This document shows, piece by piece, positions 7,278 through 15,702 of a DNA stretch of 64,000 nt. The position numbers and the translations under genes are program-made. Position 1 is the stretch's first letter. Every line of letters begins with the position of its first letter. The notes beneath the pieces were generated by a model. It was not told the origin of the DNA, searched no databases, and saw nothing but the letters and a program-made list of their open reading frames with translations. Origin of the DNA: Thiocapsa rosea (GTDB lineage: Bacteria; Pseudomonadota; Gammaproteobacteria; Chromatiales; Chromatiaceae); assembly GCF_003634315.1 (NCBI RefSeq), contig NZ_RBXL01000001.1, forward strand, positions 4,816,501 to 4,880,500. The letters are read 5' to 3'.

Positions 7278-8575
7278 GACGCGAGCTGAACGCCTTGCAT
7301 CGCCTCTGCCATCGCAGGAGACTTGCGTCAGGGAAGGAGAACCGCGACGACTGGCGGCGCTCGGAGATCGTAGTCACGACGGTGCAGTCGCTGCTCTTCA
7401 ACAACAAATACCAGCGGCTCTTCTCGCCCACCGACTTCGATGTGGTGATCTCGGACGAGGCGCACCGCTCCATCGGCGGCTATGCCCGCGCCGTCTTCGA
7501 CTACTTCATTGGCTACAAGCTGGGCCTGACCGCGACCCCCCGCGATTACCTTAAGCGGTTCGACAGCGCCAAACCGACGACACGCGACCCGCGCGAGGCC
7601 GAGCACCGGCTGTTGCTCGATACGTATCGCACCCTCGGCTGCGAGAACAGCCAGCCGACCTATCGCTACTCCCTGCTCGACGGCGTGAAAGACGGCTTCC
7701 TGATCAATCCGATCGTCGTCGACGCCCGCACCGATGTGACCACCGCGCTGCTCTCCGAGGCAGGGTTCATCGTGCCCGTGGCGGACGACACCGGCGGTGA
7801 TCGGCAAGAGGCGTACAAGCAGCGCGAGCTCGAGAAGCGATTTTTCTCGGATGCCACCAACCAGCTCTTCTGCAAGACCTTCCTCGAAAATGCACTGCGC
7901 GACCCCGTCAGCGGCGAGATCGGCAAATCGATCATCTTCGGCGTCAGTCAGAATCATGCCGCCAAACTGACCCAGATCCTCAATCAAATGGCGGATCGCC
8001 TCTTCCCCGGCAAGTACCAGTCGGACTTCGCCGTACAGGTGACCTCGCAGATTCCCGATGCCCAGCAATTCACCGTCATGTTCTTCGAACGATTCGAGGA
8101 CAGCGTTCGCGAGGACCCCGAGATCGCGGCCGCCGTCGAGGCCGGTCAGTGGGACCGGGTCATCGACTACATCAACCGCGAGGTCTTCGACAAACCCGAG
8201 GAATATTACAACCTCGATAAACTCCGCAAAGCGGCCGCGGTGGACCGCCGCTTGACCCTGCGCGAGATCCGGGAGAAGGTCTTCGGGCTGATCCCGCGCT
8301 TCAAATCCAAGGACGAGCTGCTTGAAGAGGAGTTCGCCAAGTTCGTTGCCGACTGCAAGCCCGAAGCATCCACCCCGATTCCGGCAATCAAGACCTACTT
8401 CAAGGCATACGCCACCAGCGGTCGGGTGCGCGACATCATCGACAGCGGTCAGCTCACGGATCTGGCGACCAACCCCATGTTCAGCACTCGCGACTTCAAG
8501 GCCGTGCCGCCGAAATCCCGCAGTCTGGTCCCGGCCTACGTCAAGGACTACGTGCCTCTAAACCAGTTTATGTAG
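7278..8575 (+). pseudogene. hsdR: Type I restriction endonuclease R subunit remnant (hsdR)
   Basis: HsdR is the ATP-dependent translocase/nuclease subunit of type I restriction systems. The N-terminal nuclease domain and Walker A helicase motif are missing: homology begins RRELNALHRL immediately after the trmO stop. The DEAH box (ISDEAHRSIGG) and GLTATPRDYLKRF follow, then the family sequence runs to VTSQIPDAQQFT. At about 8075 it jumps to MFFERFEDSVREDPE, which normally lies some 150-200 residues further on. That in-frame deletion removes the second RecA lobe with motifs V and VI. The C-terminal domain is intact and ends KDYVPLNQFM. An ORF remains open, but the enzyme cannot cut or translocate. 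Confidence 0.85.
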
Positions 8576-8674: not shown

Positions 8675-9427
8675 CTAGCCCGCCGGCGCCAGCCGGACCG
8701 GCGGGCGCCGGCGGGAGTTCTCGGTCATGCGCAGATAGTCGAATACCAGGCGGAGGTTGCGCGCCAGACGCGGGATGGTGGCGGAGACGGTGTCGCGGGA
8801 CTTCGCCTTGATGACGCCGATGGCGAAGCGGCGTAGCGCGGTGATGTTCGCGGGGCCATGGCCGGTGCGAATGGTGCAGCGGTCCTCGTCCCAGTTCCAG
8901 TCCAGGGAGTAGTGACAGCCGTTTTCGATCGTCCAGTGGCCGCGATTCAAGCCCAGTACCCGTGCGGCATCGGCGGTGTCGCGGGTATGACTGGTCACCC
9001 CGTAGACGGTCTCGGTGGAGGTCTTGCCGGTCTTCTTCTCCACGGTGTGGCGCTCGATGAGGAAGGCCTGTCCGACACCGGGAAAATCCAGGTATTCATT
9101 GAGGCGCTCGGAGGTCCAGATCGCGCGGCTCTCGATGCGGCCATGGCCCGGGGTGGGCGGCTCGCGGAAATCGGGTTGACCGCGGTCCTTCTCGAAGAAC
9201 AGGCGAAGATCGGCGTGCAGGTTCGGCTGATTGTCTTTGACGGTGAAGACGTAGTGGGCGTCGCGCGCACGCAGGTACTCGGCGAGCTTGCGCTGGGTGA
9301 GCAAGGCGTCGGCGGTGATGGTCTTCCCGGTGATGTCCAGGGTCTCGAGGACCGGGATGACCATCCCGATCTCGTTGGTTTGCTTGGCCTCGTCGCGACC
9401 CTCTACGGGCAGGGTGCCGACTTTTTT
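8675..9427 (-). CDS. ISAs1-family transposase, catalytic part (frame -1)
   Basis: This frame continues the transposase after the A7 run. It reads KKVGTLPVEGRDE, then NEIGMVIPVLETLDITGKTITADAL (second catalytic Asp), then the family block around YVFTVKDNQPNLH, and HWTIENGCHYSLDWNWDED with the catalytic Glu. The stop TAG lies within the left terminal inverted repeat. There is no good start codon at the beginning of this segment, so it is most likely made as a fusion with the upstream frame by -1 frameshifting. Otherwise the transposase is a frameshift mutant. Confidence 0.8.
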   Translation of the reverse strand, partial: KKVGTLPVEGRDEAKQTNEIGMVIPVLETLDITGKTITADALLTQRKLAEYLRARDAHYVFTVKDNQPNLHADLRLFFEKDRGQPDFREPPTPGHGRIESRAIWTSERLNEYLDFPGVGQAFLIERHTVEKKTGKTSTETVYGVTSHTRDTADAARVLGLNRGHWTIENGCHYSLDWNWDEDRCTIRTGHGPANITALRRFAIGVIKAKSRDTVSATIPRLARNLRLVFDYLRMTENSRRRPPVRLAPAG

Positions 9428-10467
9428 TGGGTGTAGCAGGTCTGACTGCGGTGGCCGACGACGCCGAGGATGTGGGTCTGACGGCCATCGGCGTCGATGG
9501 CATTGCGCATCGTCTTGCCGTCGACGGCCAAGTCCTCGTCCTCGGCATGCTGGAGGTTCCAGCGTTGCAGGGCGCTGTTCAACGCGTCGGGGTCGACGCG
9601 CACGAGCACCTCGCGGATGACGGTGCGGCTGGGAACCTCGTAGCGGCGGTTGCGCCAGCGGCAGCGAAAGCGCGCCCGCGCTTGCTGGCTTAAGTCCTGC
9701 GCCCATAGGCTGATGGCCTTGTAGCCGCGCATCCCGCACAGGGTGGCTGCGGCGGCGATGGCCAGCACCGTGGGCAGGGGATGGCGCCGGCCCTGACCGC
9801 GACGCGGATCGGGAATGTCGGCGAAGAACTCGGGCAAAGACAGCATCTGATCGGCGCTCAACATGATGTGCGGGGCTCCGTGACGGTAACGGGGATCGAG
9901 GACGGGATGAGACAGGCAGGCGCGGGCGCGGGCGTGCAGGGGGCGGACAAAGACACGCTTGGCGGGGCCCGTCGCGGCGCTGTAGCCGGTGCGGGTGCGC
10001 CGATAGCCGCGGGTCTCGCCCACCTCGTGCCAGTTGGCGGCGCGGTAGATCGTGCCGTGAAACCGCTGCGGGTCGACAAAGGTCTCCAGCAACAGCAACG
10101 GGTAACCGAAACGCGCCGGCCAGTCGGTGGCCAGACGCCGTTCGCTCAGCGCCAGCACCCGCGAGGCGAGGTTCGCCACATGGTGCTCGGGCAGGATCAG
10201 AAACCGGCTGTTGTTGGCGATCAGGTGCAGACGATCGTATTGATGGCGAAAGTCCCAGCCGATCCAGGCATCGCGCGCGGCACACTTCCAGGCCGCGGCC
10301 GAGAAGCTCAACAGCGCCAGCCACTGTCCCTGCCAGGTGGCGACATACCACAGCGTGTCGCCGATCTTCGGCAACGCGCCCAGATAGTGATGGGCCGCCA
10401 TGAGGCTCCGGAAGCGAGCCTCCTCGGATGCGGCGACCGGTTGTAGGACGACCTCGCGCAGGTTCAC
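9403..10467 (-). CDS. DruA (DUF4338) domain + ISAs1 transposase N-terminal part
   Basis: The first about 170 residues from GTG 10467 match the DUF4338 family, now named for DruA of the Druantia defence system: FRSLMAAHHYLGALPKIGDTL, WKCAARDAWIGWD, RFLILP and TFVDPQRFHGT(I)YRAANW. After a short linker comes the N-terminal associated domain of ISAs1 transposases (LPEFFADIPDPRRGQGRRHPL, LCGMRGYKAI), then AVDGKTMRNA with the first catalytic Asp. At 9421-9427 the frame reads CAA AAA AAG, a classic A_AAA_AAG slip site, and terminates soon after at CYTQKKSAPCP. A -1 slip gives a fusion of about 600 residues. Confidence 0.8.
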   Translation of the reverse strand: MNLREVVLQPVAASEEARFRSLMAAHHYLGALPKIGDTLWYVATWQGQWLALLSFSAAAWKCAARDAWIGWDFRHQYDRLHLIANNSRFLILPEHHVANLASRVLALSERRLATDWPARFGYPLLLLETFVDPQRFHGTIYRAANWHEVGETRGYRRTRTGYSAATGPAKRVFVRPLHARARACLSHPVLDPRYRHGAPHIMLSADQMLSLPEFFADIPDPRRGQGRRHPLPTVLAIAAAATLCGMRGYKAISLWAQDLSQQARARFRCRWRNRRYEVPSRTVIREVLVRVDPDALNSALQRWNLQHAEDEDLAVDGKTMRNAIDADGRQTHILGVVGHRSQTCYTQKKSAPCP

Positions 10468-10597: not shown

Positions 10598-10742
10598 CCG
10601 TCAGACTTGACGACCGTTGGAGCCGGCGCGATTTAAGACATTAAAAAATATATGTTTTTAAACCGCGCCTCCGCGAAGGGCTGTGGATGCAGCAAACGTC
10701 GAGCTCACTCGAGAATCAATATTTCGCTCTGGACGCGGTTTA
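10598..10742. repeat. Right part of the doublet repeat split by the insertion sequence
   Basis: This carries the rest of the first module (ending GGCGCGATTTAA), an AT-rich spacer, and a second module that ends TGGACGCGGTTTAG. It lies directly upstream of the Phd antitoxin gene, so its promoter is in or beyond the repeat. Confidence 0.85.
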
Positions 10743-10787
10743 GCTAGACTAGACCAACCATCTGCCCGAAATCCGACCGGAGACCCC

Positions 10788-11060
10788 GTGCAAGCCATCA
10801 ACATGCTGCAGGCCAAAACCAATCTCTCCCGGCTGGTGGAGGCGATCGAGCAGGGCACGGAGCGGGAGATCGTCATCGCCCGCAACGGTCACCCCGTCGC
10901 CAAGCTGGTGCCCGTCTCCGACGTGCCCCTCGAGCGCCGGATCGGCGTCGCCAAGGGCCTGTTCGTCGTACCCGACAACATTGACGCGCATAACCACGAG
11001 GTCGCGCGGCTCTTCCTGGGTGGGCGCCCCGGGGAGGATGCGAAGGCCGAGCAGGGATAG
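10788..11060 (+). CDS. Phd/YefM-family antitoxin
   Basis: Type II antitoxin of about 90 residues. The N-terminal fold INMLQAKTNLSRLVEAIEQG and VIARNGHPVAKLVP are diagnostic of the Phd/YefM DNA-binding domain. The C-terminal tail would neutralise the toxin. The GTG at 10788 fits family length; the longer frame from 10683 only adds residues encoded by the repeat. The PIN toxin starts 9 bp after the stop, so the two genes form an operon, probably autoregulated. Confidence 0.87.
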   Translation: MQAINMLQAKTNLSRLVEAIEQGTEREIVIARNGHPVAKLVPVSDVPLERRIGVAKGLFVVPDNIDAHNHEVARLFLGGRPGEDAKAEQG

Positions 11061-11069
11061 CCGTAGACG

Positions 11070-11456
11070 ATGAACCTCTTGCTCGACACCCACGTTGCAC
11101 TCTGGGCCATCGTCGACAGCCCGCGGCTGTCGACGATGGCACGCGACCTCATCCTCAACCCCCGCGCCAGGGTCTGGATCAGCGTGGCCAGCATCTGGGA
11201 GATCGCGATCCAGTATCGCCTCGGGCGCGGCAACATGCCGATTTCGGGCTCAGACGCAATCGGCTTTTTCCGCACGGCGGGCTACCAGTTTCTCCCCGTC
11301 GAACCGGAACATGCCGCCGCCACCGAAACCCTACCGCCCCACCATCAGGATCCCTTCGACCGGATCTTGGCTGCACAGGCCCAAGTCGAGCCGATGCGCC
11401 TGCTGACGCACGACCCGTTACTCGTTCCCTATGGCGACTTCATCGTCGCCGTCTGA
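11070..11456 (+). CDS. VapC-like PIN-domain toxin
   Basis: PIN-domain ribonuclease of 128 residues, partner of the preceding antitoxin. Acidic active-site residues are visible: LLLDTHVALW (first Asp), SIWEIAIQYRLGR (Glu), and HHQDPFDRILAAQA (two Asp near the C-terminus). The length and order are typical of type II vapBC/phd-PIN modules. It starts 9 bp after the antitoxin and ends 22 bp before the hsdM start, so the pair lies inside the decayed restriction locus and may have stabilised it. Confidence 0.9.
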   Translation: MNLLLDTHVALWAIVDSPRLSTMARDLILNPRARVWISVASIWEIAIQYRLGRGNMPISGSDAIGFFRTAGYQFLPVEPEHAAATETLPPHHQDPFDRILAAQAQVEPMRLLTHDPLLVPYGDFIVAV

Positions 11457-11478
11457 TTGCACACTCATCTGGATCCAC

Positions 11479-13240
11479 ATGCTCGACACTGATACCAAAC
11501 GGCGCATCGACACCGCCCGTGACATCCTCGTAGGCAAGGTGCCCGACCCCAAGAGTCAGGTCGAGCAGATCACGATTGCCCTGATCTACAAGTTCATGGA
11601 CGACATGGACGCCGATGCCGAAGAGCTGGGCGGCCACCGCAAGTTCTTCGCCGGCGCATACGCCGGGTACGGTTGGGCCAAGCTGATGCGCTCCGGCCTG
11701 GGCGGACATGAGACGCTGAACCTCTACGCAGAGGCCATCGCCAAGATGCCGGAGAACCCCGGCATCCCGCCCCTCTTCCGCGACATCTTCAAGAACGCCT
11801 TTCTGCCCTACCGCGATCCGGAGACACTGCGGGCCTTCCTGAAGATCATCGACGAGTTCGAGTACGACCATTCCGAACGCTTGGGTGACGCCTTTGAATA
11901 TCTGCTCTCCGTGCTCGGCAGCCAGAGGGCGATGCCGGACAGTTCCGCACCCCGCGCCACATCATCGATTTCATTGTCGCCGTTATCGACCCGAAGAAGC
12001 ACGACACATCACCAGCCAGGACCGCTGGAACGACTACGCCGACGTCATCCTGGCCAACCCGCCATTCATGTCGCCGAAGGGCGGGATCAAGCCGCATGAG
12101 CGATTCTCAGTGAAGTCCAAACGCTCGGAGGTTTTGTTTCTAGACTACTTTCTGGAGCATCTAACACCTGCTGGCAGGGCTGGTGTCATCGTACCCGAAG
12201 GCATTCACTTTGTAGCTCACGCCGGGCACGTGCAATTGAGGCGTCTTTTAGTCGAAGGAGGATATTTATTGGCAGACATCACGCTCCCACGTGGTGTATT
12301 CAAGCCTTATGCTAGTGTGAAGACGCATATTCTCATTATCGATCGCCTGCTTGCCAGACGCTCCGATTCCGTCCTCTTCATTGAGATTGAGAATGACGGA
12401 TTTACGCAAACCGATACGCGAGAGCGAGTTCCGGGATCGCAGCTTAATACTGCTCAACGGATCATATCCGACTTCAAGTACGCGGTCGAGAACGGGACGA
12501 TATGGGCTGAGCAAACAAATAGGCCAAGATCATTCACGGTGTCGAAGAAGTCTCTCCTTTCTAGACGCACAGTACATTTAATCGGACGTTGGCCCGACCT
12601 ACCGAATCGGGTTATTCACCGGGAGGACATCCCGCTCTGGCGATTGGGTGACGTATGTGAAATCCTGGAAGGTCAGTCTCCCAACATGGCCACAACCCCT
12701 GGCGCGTTTGTGTTAGGCGTACCAGCAGAAGAGCGGAAATCAGCAGCTCACTGGGATTTTGAAGGTAAGGCGGTTTGTGTCCCTCTTGTATCTTCATCAG
12801 GGCAAGGAAAGGCCGACATTAAGCGGATCCACTACCAAGAAGGAAAGTTCGCGCTCGCAAGTACAATGTGTGCCATCTTTGTTAAAGATGAAGATAGAAT
12901 CCGACCCCGGTTTCTTCACCTCTTCTTGAGCGCCGTAATCGAGGAGTTGATCGTACCGCTAATGTTCGGCGCTACGAATGTGACTATGGACAGCTCTCAG
13001 CTTGCTGACGTGCTTATACCAATTCCAGAACCGGCAATACAGGATGAGATCATTGAATCGCACCTTATCTTTACCAAAGCTACCGATTTAGCTGAGATAG
13101 CTGCGTCGCCGCGCCAAGCGACTCGCGACAACTGTGTTATTGATTTGAGTGAGCGCATAGTTCGCGACGTTAATGAATTGATTGCCGCGACGGCAACCCA
13201 CGCTACCATCGCGAATCTATTGCCTGGATCCGACGTCTAG
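11479..13240 (+). pseudogene. hsdM: Broken type I methyltransferase (hsdM) with fused specificity-like C-terminus
   Basis: HsdM is the N6-adenine methylase subunit. The N-terminal domain from MLDTDTKRRIDTARDIL is normal to LLSVLGSQ. There an extra AG (a duplicated AG at 11926-11927) shifts the frame; the correct continuation GDAGQFRTPRHIIDFIVAVIDP is in frame 3. A second lesion near 12005 joins this to TSQDRWNDYADVILANPPF in frame 2. It removes SAM motif I (DPACGTAGF in the family) and surrounding sequence. The NPPF catalytic motif and the rest are open to 13240. The C-terminal third (PLWRLGDVCEILEGQSP...) resembles a target-recognition domain of HsdS. Base composition from about 12100 is visibly more AT-rich. 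Confidence 0.85.
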
Positions 13241-13335
13241 CCGGTAACTCACTAAATGCGTCAAGATCAGAATCGAGAGAACCCTCGCTCGCGCGTCTGG
13301 GGCGAGCTGGATAAGGTCCAACCCAGGAAGAGCTG

Positions 13336-14394
13336 ATGAAAATCCGCGCGATCCATGTCTTCGAGGCCGGCCCTCTCGGCTCCCGGGTCTTCGATTTCAA
13401 AGATGACTGGTCCGGCGAGATTGCCACCAACATCCTCTTCAGCGGACCGAACGGCTGCGGCAAGTCGTCGGCGCTGCGGGCTGTGGCCATGCTCTGGGGC
13501 GCCTTTGGCCATTGGCTGCAACACCGCAAGCCCCTACCCAAAAGCAGCGCGGAACGGGAGTGGCTCCAGGGCTGGGGCGGTGTGGCCCTGTTCCTGGAGG
13601 ATCTGCCCTTCGACGGACCCTCGATGGCGCTCTTGTTCGGTCGACAGGAGTTTGTCGAAGCGCTGGAACAGCAGTATCCCGAATGTTCATTCGTGGGTGA
13701 GTGGGTGGCTCGAACCGGCAGACCCGGCGCCCCGGCACGCAAGATGCTCTGGCCCAAGGACGCGAGCTGGCTCGATCGGTGGACCGAGTCACGGCAGACG
13801 ATGCTGGTGTCCGCGGACAAGAGCGATTCCCCCAACATGATCTTTCTGGATGCTGAGGAGCGCCGATGGGTTCCCCCGCGGCGCGGTGTGGGTGAGATCC
13901 GGCAGGAGGATCCGCAGCAGCGCTGGCTAACCAGCTATCGTGTCTCGGAGCAATGGGAGGGCCAGCTGGAAGCCTCGCTGCTCGCCATGAAGTCGGCGGC
14001 GCTGCACCGCTTTCATGACTTGATCCGCGACATGAACGCCTTTCTGAGCGGCAAAGAGATCCTGACCGAGGTAAAACTCGGAGAGAATCGGCTACGGGTA
14101 AAGCTCAAGAACGGAACCGGCACGACGCACAGCCTCGACGACCTTAGTGCGGGCGAACATCAGGTCTTGATCCAGCTCTACCTCGTGAACCGATGGATGG
14201 AGACGGGTGGCGTCGTGCTGATCGACGAGCCGGATCTCTATCTGCACCCCTCATTGGTCTCGGGTTTTCTCGCCCGTTTGGAGAGGATGGTCGCCGACCG
14301 AGGCGGCCAGCTCATCATCACTTCGCATGTGCCCGAGGTCTGGAGCCGTTACGACGCACTTGGAAAACGGATCTTGCTGGAGGCGGCTCCGTGA
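13336..14394 (+). CDS. AAA/ABC-type ATPase, PARIS AriA-like
   Basis: ATPase of 352 residues with an SMC/RecF-like ABC fold. Walker A is SGPNGCGKSSALRAV (about residue 36). The signature-like motif is DLSAGEHQVLIQLYLVN, Walker B is VVLIDEPDLYLHPSL, and the H-loop segment is LIITSHVPEVW. A Shine-Dalgarno AGGAAGAG precedes ATG 13336. The last codons overlap the start of the next gene (GTGA), so the two proteins are translationally coupled. AAA_15-type ATPase followed by a DUF4435 protein is the architecture of PARIS (AriA-AriB), an abortive anti-phage system. This pair is somewhat shorter than the described ones, so 'PARIS-like' is an inference. Confidence 0.82.
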   Translation: MKIRAIHVFEAGPLGSRVFDFKDDWSGEIATNILFSGPNGCGKSSALRAVAMLWGAFGHWLQHRKPLPKSSAEREWLQGWGGVALFLEDLPFDGPSMALLFGRQEFVEALEQQYPECSFVGEWVARTGRPGAPARKMLWPKDASWLDRWTESRQTMLVSADKSDSPNMIFLDAEERRWVPPRRGVGEIRQEDPQQRWLTSYRVSEQWEGQLEASLLAMKSAALHRFHDLIRDMNAFLSGKEILTEVKLGENRLRVKLKNGTGTTHSLDDLSAGEHQVLIQLYLVNRWMETGGVVLIDEPDLYLHPSLVSGFLARLERMVADRGGQLIITSHVPEVWSRYDALGKRILLEAAP

Positions 14395-15206
14395 CGATTC
14401 GGTCCAGGCGAGACCGTATCCGGCAGGAGTTGATCGGGAGTCAGCCCAAGCAGGCGTTTCTGGTCGAGGGGGCGGACGACAAGGAGGCGTTTCGTATCCT
14501 GCTGGAGCGTTTCGCGCCCGGATGGGAGCAGCGGTGGGCGATTGCCGCGGTCGGCAATAAGCGTCAACTCCTGGAGCTTCTCATGCTGGAGCCCGAATGG
14601 ATTGGACTCGTGGACCGCGACGAATGGGATCAGGCTGCCATCGACGCCCGCGTTGCTGAACAGCCAAACCTGTTGGTGCTACCTCGTTTCTGCTTGGAAA
14701 ACTTCCTGATCCACCCATCCGAGCTCTGGCAAGCGATCCCGCCCACGCGTCAAGCGGCGGTCGCCGGCGGCGAGAGGGCCTTCTGCGCCGAAATGGAAAC
14801 GCACCTGCCCGACTATCGGCGCCACGCTGCACTCTGGAAGGTTGTCACACCCCTTTGGTCTGGCCTGCGCGCATTGGGATTCAAAGAGGCGCTGGCCTCG
14901 GAGGAGAGTCTGGTGACTGCCCAGAACGATGCAGAGATTCAGCGCGTCTTGGGCAAGTGGGACGCGCTGCTCGATCCCGCACGAATCTTCGCCCAGTTTC
15001 AGAGCCAATGTGGCGCCGCGGAAGCTGCAAGCACCGACGACCAGTATTCGCATTGGGTTCACGGGAAGCACTACTGGAAAAAGGTCGTCAATCCTGCGAT
15101 GAACCGAATACTCGGCCAAATGGACGAGGGCGAACGGCGCAAGAAAATCCTCCGTAAGCTACAGCCACCGGCGGACCTACAAACTATCCTTGAACGCTTC
15201 TCGTAG
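14391..15206 (+). CDS. DUF4435 (TOPRIM-like) protein, PARIS AriB-like effector
   Basis: Protein of 271 residues beginning at GTG 14391, which overlaps the ATPase stop. It has the DUF4435/TOPRIM layout: an acidic FLVEGADDKEAFRILLERF near the N-terminus (conserved Glu), WIGLVDRDEWD with a DxD pair, then FCLENFLIHP. In PARIS, AriB is the effector nuclease released when AriA senses a phage anti-restriction protein. Here the likely metal-binding acidic residues are all present, so the effector looks functional. The longer in-frame extension to 14193 overlaps the ATPase and is not used. Confidence 0.8.
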   Translation: MTIRSRRDRIRQELIGSQPKQAFLVEGADDKEAFRILLERFAPGWEQRWAIAAVGNKRQLLELLMLEPEWIGLVDRDEWDQAAIDARVAEQPNLLVLPRFCLENFLIHPSELWQAIPPTRQAAVAGGERAFCAEMETHLPDYRRHAALWKVVTPLWSGLRALGFKEALASEESLVTAQNDAEIQRVLGKWDALLDPARIFAQFQSQCGAAEAASTDDQYSHWVHGKHYWKKVVNPAMNRILGQMDEGERRKKILRKLQPPADLQTILERFS

Positions 15207-15306
15207 CGAATCAGCCCGGAGTACGCGGACACGGCGAACAGCGAAATCGCCGAGAGCCAGATCAAGGCGACGCGGTCTGGAGTTCGGATCGTCATGGAGG
15301 CTTTAA

Positions 15307-15519
15307 TTGACGGCACCTATTCATACCATCTCCGAGGTCAATCAGCGCGCCAAAGATGCTCTGATCAGAGAAATCGGAGTCGTCGACAGCATTCGTTTCC
15401 TGAACCAGTTTCGCATCGGGAGCGGGAACTATACCGCTGAGCGCGAGAGCCTGTTCGAAGGGACAACGGTCAAGGAGATTATCGCAGATATTAAATCCAG
15501 AAGGGCTGACCGAACATGA
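15307..15519 (+). CDS. Small protein, 70 residues, unknown function
   Basis: Starts at TTG 15307 preceded at ideal distance by GGAGG (15296-15300), a strong ribosome site. The sequence (ISEVNQRAKDALIREIGVVD, IRFLNQFRIGSGNYTAERES, VKEIIADIKSRRA) resembles small conserved proteins often found near mobile or toxin-antitoxin genes. I do not know their function. It follows the PARIS-like pair after 100 bp on the same strand and may be an orphan antitoxin or a third gene of the module. Confidence 0.65.
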   Translation: MTAPIHTISEVNQRAKDALIREIGVVDSIRFLNQFRIGSGNYTAERESLFEGTTVKEIIADIKSRRADRT

Positions 15520-15678
15520 TGCCTCATTCTCCGTCGCCACTGCGGCGAAGCGGAAACGCGGCGTCGCTGGCGTAGGAGACGCACGAATAGCGACTGATAT
15601 GATAAAGGGGAGTCACGAAGATGGTCATCCCTGATTCAATTGGCGTTTTTTGAACCAGGCGATTCGGGCTACCGAGTA

Positions 15679-15702
15679 TGAGGCCGAAACGACGCGGCCT
15701 CA
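15679..15702 (-). terminator. Hairpin downstream of rlmB
   Basis: TGAGGCCG/CGGCCTCA forms an 8-bp stem with an 8-base loop, 12 bp past the rlmB stop. There is no U-run, so termination is uncertain. The rest of 15520-15713 shows no gene. Confidence 0.4.

Follow-up and report, generated by a model that had tools for sequence, protein, structure and literature searches.

In the PARIS (phage anti-restriction-induced system) of E. coli, AriB is held by a hexamer of the ATPase AriA until it is released by a phage trigger, for example Ocr, and then nicks tRNA (PMC12409363; PMC11455837). The structures solved for the E. coli B185 system (PDB 8ux9 and 8v45-8v49) contain an AriA of 464 amino acids (aa) and an AriB of 306 aa (solved chain), and the original rule for calling PARIS asked for at least 32 bits to AAA_15 or at least 27 bits to AAA_21, together with at least 27 bits to DUF4435 (PMC9122126). 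PARIS inside bacteriophage exclusion (BREX) loci has already been published (PMC11341690; PMC12839542): the ariAB genes of the Salmonella BREX locus (StySA/BREXSty; STM4493-STM4494) have been named PARIS (PMC11341690), and modules of OLD-ABC and TOPRIM proteins in BREX and BREX-related systems are presented as PARIS-like backup effectors recruited by BREX, the order hsdR-hsdMS-ariA-ariB not being described for them in the available part of that paper (PMC12839542). Among the literature matches listed, such a pair as part of a type I restriction-modification (R-M) operon was not described, the ABC-ATPase survey that the available part of PMC12839542 cites for RM-like systems lying outside this scope. 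In this study, we analysed a stretch of 64,000 nucleotides (nt) of Thiocapsa rosea DNA (the window; positions 4816501-4880500 of contig NZ_RBXL01000001.1, within a 6.1-Mb genome whose nearest named relatives include Chromatiaceae), in which an earlier note, made from the sequence alone, had pointed to a PARIS-like gene pair beside a dead type I restriction system. We consider it probable that this pair, from a discrete short subfamily, is a PARIS-type module of two genes that acts in abortive infection by a PARIS-like mechanism, and that it is a cassette which has outlived its R-M operon.

The two-gene pair is real and intact. Its first gene, for an ariA-like OLD-family ABC ATPase, lies at 13336..14394 on the plus strand (ATG start, 352 aa), and its second, for an ariB-like TOPRIM (DUF4435-like) effector, lies at 14391..15206 on the same strand (271 aa), the GTG start at 14391 falling inside the ATPase stop to give the 4-nt overlap GTGA. 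The ATPase motifs GPNGCGKSS, LSAGEHQ and LIDEPDLYLHP and the effector acidic motifs VEG (residues 25-27) and VDRD (residues 74-77) are present as the earlier note had quoted them, and the ATPase gene is followed directly by the TOPRIM/DUF4435-like gene, which is the order of E. coli PARIS. The span proposed in that note, 13336-15519, does contain the pair and runs beyond its end at 15206 into an unrelated open reading frame (ORF) of 70 aa.

The PARIS assignment rests on the effector and on the gene pair. The effector matches the PADLOC AriB family at 3.4e-16 over residues 23-235, and the same family is matched by all 41 aligned effectors of the subfamily. When its AlphaFold model (predicted local distance difference test, pLDDT, 94.5) was compared with the PDB by Foldseek, the two best folds were PARIS AriB chains (top 8ux9_A; E 4.5e-4 and 6.4e-4, probability 1.00). 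D75, D77 and E103 are invariant in the 41 rows and E26 is nearly so. Judged by these family and fold matches, the effector belongs with PARIS AriB, and the PARIS-like identity first proposed for the pair is upheld. The next effector folds after AriB are the OLD nuclease 6p74 and the OLD C-terminal region, which favour an alternative in which the sensor-effector architecture is the same and the effector cuts DNA or another RNA, like the OLD/Gabija TOPRIM nucleases, and not tRNA. TOPRIM substrates vary between AriB, OLD and GajA (PMC12409363), and the window AriB is shorter than the solved chain (271 against 306 aa), which also speak for it; we nevertheless regard it as unlikely, since the PADLOC AriB match is shared by every member over the extent given above and since the E values of the AriB chains are two orders of magnitude better than those for OLD.

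For the ATPase, Pfam AAA_21 was matched at 56.8 bits (cut-off 27), and the PADLOC families AriAB (7.6e-22) and AriA (1.3e-16) were the two best of 122, with AbiLi, mad3, PtuA and others also matching; from the single sequence, AriA was the best PDB match (1.8e-9). A housekeeping RecF or SMC protein, which the earlier note had named, together with a second protein outside DUF4435/TOPRIM, as the finding that would overturn its reading, was rejected, as RecF was reached only at E 0.038 and SMC_N at E 0.0013 with 18.6 bits against a cut-off of 40.

Several results weigh against placing the pair in PARIS. The effector scores 23.0 bits to Pfam DUF4435, under the cut-off of 27, and only 15 of the 41 members reach that family at E 1e-3. 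The two AriB fold matches are weak in superposition (template-modelling score 0.47, with a root-mean-square deviation of 14.8 A, and 0.42). In an alignment with an unrelated two-gene AriB (L085), VEG stands opposite E26 and IDKD opposite the VDRD aspartates, but this match is weak (probability 18%). No AriB was found when the PDB was searched by sequence with the effector alone, or with a 43-row AriB profile. On the side of the ATPase, the profile search of the PDB gave AriA (6.3e-23) and PtuA (1e-22) near level, and the AlphaFold model (pLDDT 90.4) was matched by Foldseek to PtuA of retron Ec83/Septu at rank 1 (E 4.4e-12) and to AriA at rank 14 (E 2.9e-10); the fold comparison suggested in the earlier note thus came out in favour of AriB for the effector and not of AriA for the ATPase. 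Since AriA and PtuA are level by profile and PtuA comes first by fold, the ATPase alone is not decisive for PARIS. PtuA usually has an HNH nuclease as its partner, whether or not a retron is present, whereas the partner in the window is a TOPRIM protein. PtuB is an HNH protein (PMC12409363). Under the original Pfam rule, AAA_21 passes and DUF4435 fails, and the pair is therefore filed as a PARIS-like short subfamily and not as canonical PARIS; given the two DUF4435 results above, that survey rule would probably miss many members of the short branch.

The distinctness of this branch, which had been suspected from the length of the two proteins, was borne out by comparison with the solved structures and by profiles. 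Walker A and the C-terminal half of the solved AriA (residues 30-50 and 320-434) align with residues 34-54 and 223-340 of the window ATPase, a span of about 270 residues in the former against about 170 in the latter, so that about 100 residues are missing from the insertion between them; the long-insertion form of 464 aa is thus not what the window carries. A scan of 84,980 species genomes with two peptide patterns, by which more distant or variant members would be missed, gave 44 loci, of which 42 were kept. The other two, L057 and L058, were rejected as members at 23 bits with a leave-out profile; they are out of the locus count and remain in the alignments, the 40-row tree and the 41-member counts. 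With these two and cut or broken genes excluded, complete members outside the L052-L055 branch have an AriA of 344-367 aa and an AriB of 270-280 aa, and a 4-nt overlap joins the two genes in 36 of the 42 pairs measured. An AriB profile built from 27 members, with the window clade left out, scored the window clade at 312-340 bits, the L052-L055 branch at 205-228 bits and 17 other AriB-like proteins from the class sample at no more than 52 bits; over the subfamily AriB profiles as a whole, members reached 205-373 bits and those 17 proteins, two-gene and fused, at most 54. AriB-like proteins occur in 19 of the 369 class-sample genomes, the short kind in two (the window genome and G432). Sequence comparison thus sets the pair apart as a member of a discrete short PARIS-like subfamily.

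The adjoining type I R-M genes are dead while the pair is intact, as the earlier note had read the locus. The same gene order was found in relatives, among which Thiobaca has a full-length pair (82% and 72% identical to that of the window) and Thiocystis violacea DSM 207 (L011/L019) carries the whole EcoAI-like operon hsdR-hsdMS-ariA-ariB in an intact state, with an HsdR of 855 aa (HSDR_N, ResIII) and an HsdM-HsdS fusion of 860 aa (N6_Mtase and Methylase_S) before ariA and ariB. When the window was compared with these Thiocystis genes by tblastn, the hsdR remnant (7295..8575, plus strand) proved to be one open frame that keeps residues 277-524 and 687-855 of 855, the 276 N-terminal residues with the nuclease N-terminus being lost and about 160 internal residues deleted. 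The remnant of the hsdM-hsdS fusion (11431..13240, plus strand; its N-terminal part to about 12008, then 11993-13093 in another frame) keeps residues 1-159, 149-176 and 275-647 of 860 in three frames, with a hole of about 100 residues in the methylase core and the last 213 or so residues, with the second specificity domain, missing; it still reaches the Pfam cut-offs for N6_Mtase and Methylase_S, and HsdM_N stays at 19.5 bits, under its cut-off of 24.5. The R-M genes of the window have decayed through deletions, frame shifts and insertions, and the complete HsdR, HsdM and HsdS of a functional type I R-M system are not found there. Between the two remnants and outside the module lie pieces of an ISAs1-type transposase with an N-terminal DruA domain (8675..10467, minus strand) and a Phd/YefM-PIN toxin-antitoxin pair (10683..11456, plus strand). 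In the former, a DruA (Druantia protein A) domain, PF14236 at 2.3e-26, stands N-terminal to transposase pieces (DDE_Tnp_1_assoc, ISAs1) in overlapping frames.

An intact pair beside dead genes might be no more than a relic, intact merely because the decay is recent, and already silent or soon to be lost. The plus strand at 12700-15700 showed no sigma-70-like promoter, a weak negative (one site in all, on the minus strand, with 0.9 expected); the upstream part of the operon is rearranged; and the solo pair of Lamprocystis (L014/L023) has a broken ATPase. These points favour a relic, and yet the 623 codons of the window pair are without a stop or frame shift while both R-M genes carry deletions, and half of the kept loci (21/42) have the pair without a visible R-M or BREX partner, so that we hold a mere relic to be very improbable. 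The ratio of nonsynonymous to synonymous substitution rates (dN/dS) of ariA, 0.08-0.15 against four relatives, points to purifying selection; as it spans the whole divergence it is no proof of selection since the R-M decay, which dN/dS is unable to date, and for ariB dS was saturated in two of the four window comparisons.

Evidence for a cassette came from operons with and without the pair. Strong relatives of the window R-M methylase (E <= 1e-100) occur in 8 of the 369 class genomes, and the pair was found in none of the eight in the DNA around the methylase (1.7-4.9 kb downstream). The DNA alignment of the R-MS operon of G248 (L075) with Thiocystis holds until hsdMS ends and resumes at the following gene (79.6% over 1840 columns), whereas the stretch of about 1.95 kb that carries ariA and ariB is missing from G248; the resumed part covers a small gene (72%) and an Abi_2 gene (77%) that the two share as neighbours, and their integrases differ (25.5% identical). 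This alignment points to a natural empty site and to the pair as a plug-in cassette. Likewise, the Thiobaca and Thiocystis pairs are 89% and 71% identical and the integrases downstream of them (L010 and L011) are 93% identical over 270 residues, while the R-M genes beside them belong to different families, which argues that partners have been exchanged. The pair may travel on a related island, to judge from these near-identical integrases. A similar case has been made for BREX: the two genes are absent from E. coli HS, and their later acquisition in Typhimurium has been proposed (PMC9009780). As an observation apart, the R-MS operons L075 and L077-L081 (G248, G523, G519, G235, G422 and G284) have differing accessory genes between hsdR and hsdMS and behind hsdMS, including ABC-3C/DUF2326 (L077, by Pfam), Abi_2 (L075) and, named by eye, KilA-N-like, cytosine-methylase-like and other genes, and look as if they had fixed places for swappable defence genes.

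The 42 loci comprise 17 in type 1 BREX, 4 in R-M (L015, L019, L022 and L030) and 21 in neither context, the last meaning that neither the type 1 BREX queries nor those of two R-M sets found a match in the available flanking DNA; L016, L020, L021 and L025 have little flank and L024 lacks upstream DNA. Pfam analysis of 17 proteins near 10 of these 21 loci revealed no R-M or BREX family above cut-off. The pair is preceded by pglX and followed by pglZ in 12 of the 17 BREX loci, and annotated records outside the 42 added two further BREX cases. In the Armatimonadota loci L022 and L030, near-full-length R matches and MS matches precede the pair, MS being in two pieces in L030. A phage or plasmid origin of the close family was rejected: one plasmid record and one 'phage' record were found, both BREX, the latter being really a Salmonella genome contig, and viral contigs held no relatives by the patterns used. 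On a tree of 40 joined AriA and AriB pairs, from which L023, L024, L027, L042, L047, L050 and L055 were omitted as cut, broken or unplaced, R-M context was somewhat clustered (3 changes against 4.8 shuffled; 2/500) and the window grouped with two solo pairs and with the R-M-linked pairs of Thiobaca and Thiocystis (98/91). The latter two came out as sisters on the joined tree (100/98) and not on a weaker AriB-only tree, which mixes the subfamily with other AriBs and whose long branches make it unreliable.

These contexts bear on a second alternative, a partner guard, in which the pair would watch the adjoining methylase or specificity protein (PglX, HsdMS) and fire when a phage inhibitor binds it or when it is lost. 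In its favour, the pair follows a methylase or specificity gene closely in five R-M cases including the window (ariA starting 20-67 nt after S or MS in the R-M loci and 95 nt after it in the window) and in seven BREX cases (L008, L009, L026, L029, L044, L046 and L049), where pglX overlaps ariA or ends within 3 nt of it; BREX context is clustered on the 40-pair tree (6 changes against 12.7 shuffled; 0/500 as low); and StySA pglX deletions were unrecoverable in three contexts, for which the authors name further genes as possible causes (PMC9009780). Against it stand the 21 relatives lacking a visible partner, the differing R-M families beside the close Thiobaca and Thiocystis pairs, the deletion of pglX with ariAB present on a plasmid in E. 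coli and the failure to stop Ocr-carrying T7 with PglX present (PMC11341690). Moreover, in the window the pair persists intact beside a dead partner; losing the partner is by itself therefore not fatal, which argues against strict dependence. Taken together, we think a partner guard quite unlikely.

The nearest relative found to have been tested in print, the Salmonella BREX ariAB, belongs to the same short subfamily by alignment, with an ATPase of 363 aa and a DUF4435 protein of 270 aa that share 43% and 40% identity with the window proteins, and is likewise accessory to a DNA-methylating defence; it differs in lying between pglX and pglZ and not after hsdMS, and in an overlap of 14 nt between its genes. 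Its published record is unfavourable to a PARIS-like mechanism: it did not protect against T7 when the entire island was there, it responded to neither Ocr nor Gp5 in a pglX-deleted background, by itself it was inactive against the tested phages, and its deletion made BREX defence about tenfold stronger against some phages (PMC11341690). The Ocr and Gp5 test also removed PglX and was therefore blind to a trigger acting via PglX; the T7 test with the whole island had PglX. Sensing in the short subfamily may accordingly differ from that of E. coli PARIS. That the pair is an Ocr-triggered guard of the neighbouring restriction system, as the earlier note had suggested, is unproven; that the locus kept its guard is possible, and is not distinguishable from a free-standing module, because half of the relatives show no R-M or BREX gene by the query sets in the available DNA and the host has eight other long adenine-methylase genes.

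As for the PARIS-type module that we prefer, its working is predicted by analogy with E. coli PARIS, and complex formation, trigger, tRNA cleavage and continued function of the window pair are all inferred in this way. AriA (the ATPase) would hold AriB (the TOPRIM RNase) inactive; a phage product, most likely a disabler of DNA-methylating defences and not necessarily Ocr, would change AriA; and the freed AriB would cut host tRNA, by which growth and phage would be stopped. The tRNAs cleaved by AriB in PARIS are Lys-UUU and Thr-UGU; the literature passages covered report no such cleavage for a short-subfamily member. The pair joined an EcoAI-like hsdR-hsdMS operon at its 3' end as a cassette; in the window, the R-M genes of that operon have decayed and the pair has stayed intact.

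Some further observations concern the surroundings. The 70-aa ORF behind the pair (15307-15519, plus strand, TTG start) represents a small conserved family found in 9 of 96 host-family genomes including the host, with multiple copies in some. It gave no match at E <= 1e-4 in 7 other related records searched and no family model above cut-off in profile scans, and is perhaps an orphan antitoxin; as a third component it was rejected, there being no sign of a tie to the pair. Besides its eight other long adenine-methylase genes, the host has one PglZ gene. This gene lies in a BREX-like locus at about 2.33 Mb (L064 1934-7368), where pglX, named by eye and by an Eco57I methylase domain, seems to be interrupted by a DUF6399 (transposase-like) gene; a GmrSD-type gene sits between this pglX and the pglZ. 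In a Mariprofundus metagenome-assembled genome (MAG; L031 5578-12596), the N- and C-terminal parts of PglX are separated by a 486-aa frame, ariA and ariB, which would mean that pglX has taken up an insertion or that PglX is encoded by two genes. The solo pair of Lamprocystis purpurea (L014 8705-10559 / L023), with its frame-shifted ATPase, is located directly behind a long gene that was judged mfd-like by eye; in a Thiodictyon MAG, the pair (L013/L020) also comes after a gene of this kind, and the place may be an insertion spot. In Desulfobacterales HSG2 (L038 1807-3755), the pair is preceded, about 5 kb upstream, by another AAA_21/AAA_15 ATPase, which has a small partner of unknown type.

A wider reading, which we put forward tentatively and hold to be doubtful, is that the short subfamily serves DNA-methylating immunity as a movable backup, a single cassette that is exchanged between BREX and type I R-M operons and placed behind the methylase or specificity gene; its stripped-down AriA would sense a non-Ocr cue, e.g. 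anti-restriction proteins already bound to the methylase, and the window pair would have been freed from its first partner, to work alone or for the host's other methylases. The PARIS structures that the PDB search brought up represent a single long form, and a separate short branch, which sits beside two kinds of methylating defence, is defined here. Natural material for testing its trigger is at hand in the intact operon of R-M genes and pair (Thiocystis, and likely others in Armatimonadota), the matching operon without the pair (G248), the pairs without a visible partner and the window pair with its dead one. If the trigger is not Ocr, this would explain the published Salmonella negative, and a pair that has outlived its restriction neighbour is a natural test of the module's need for a partner.

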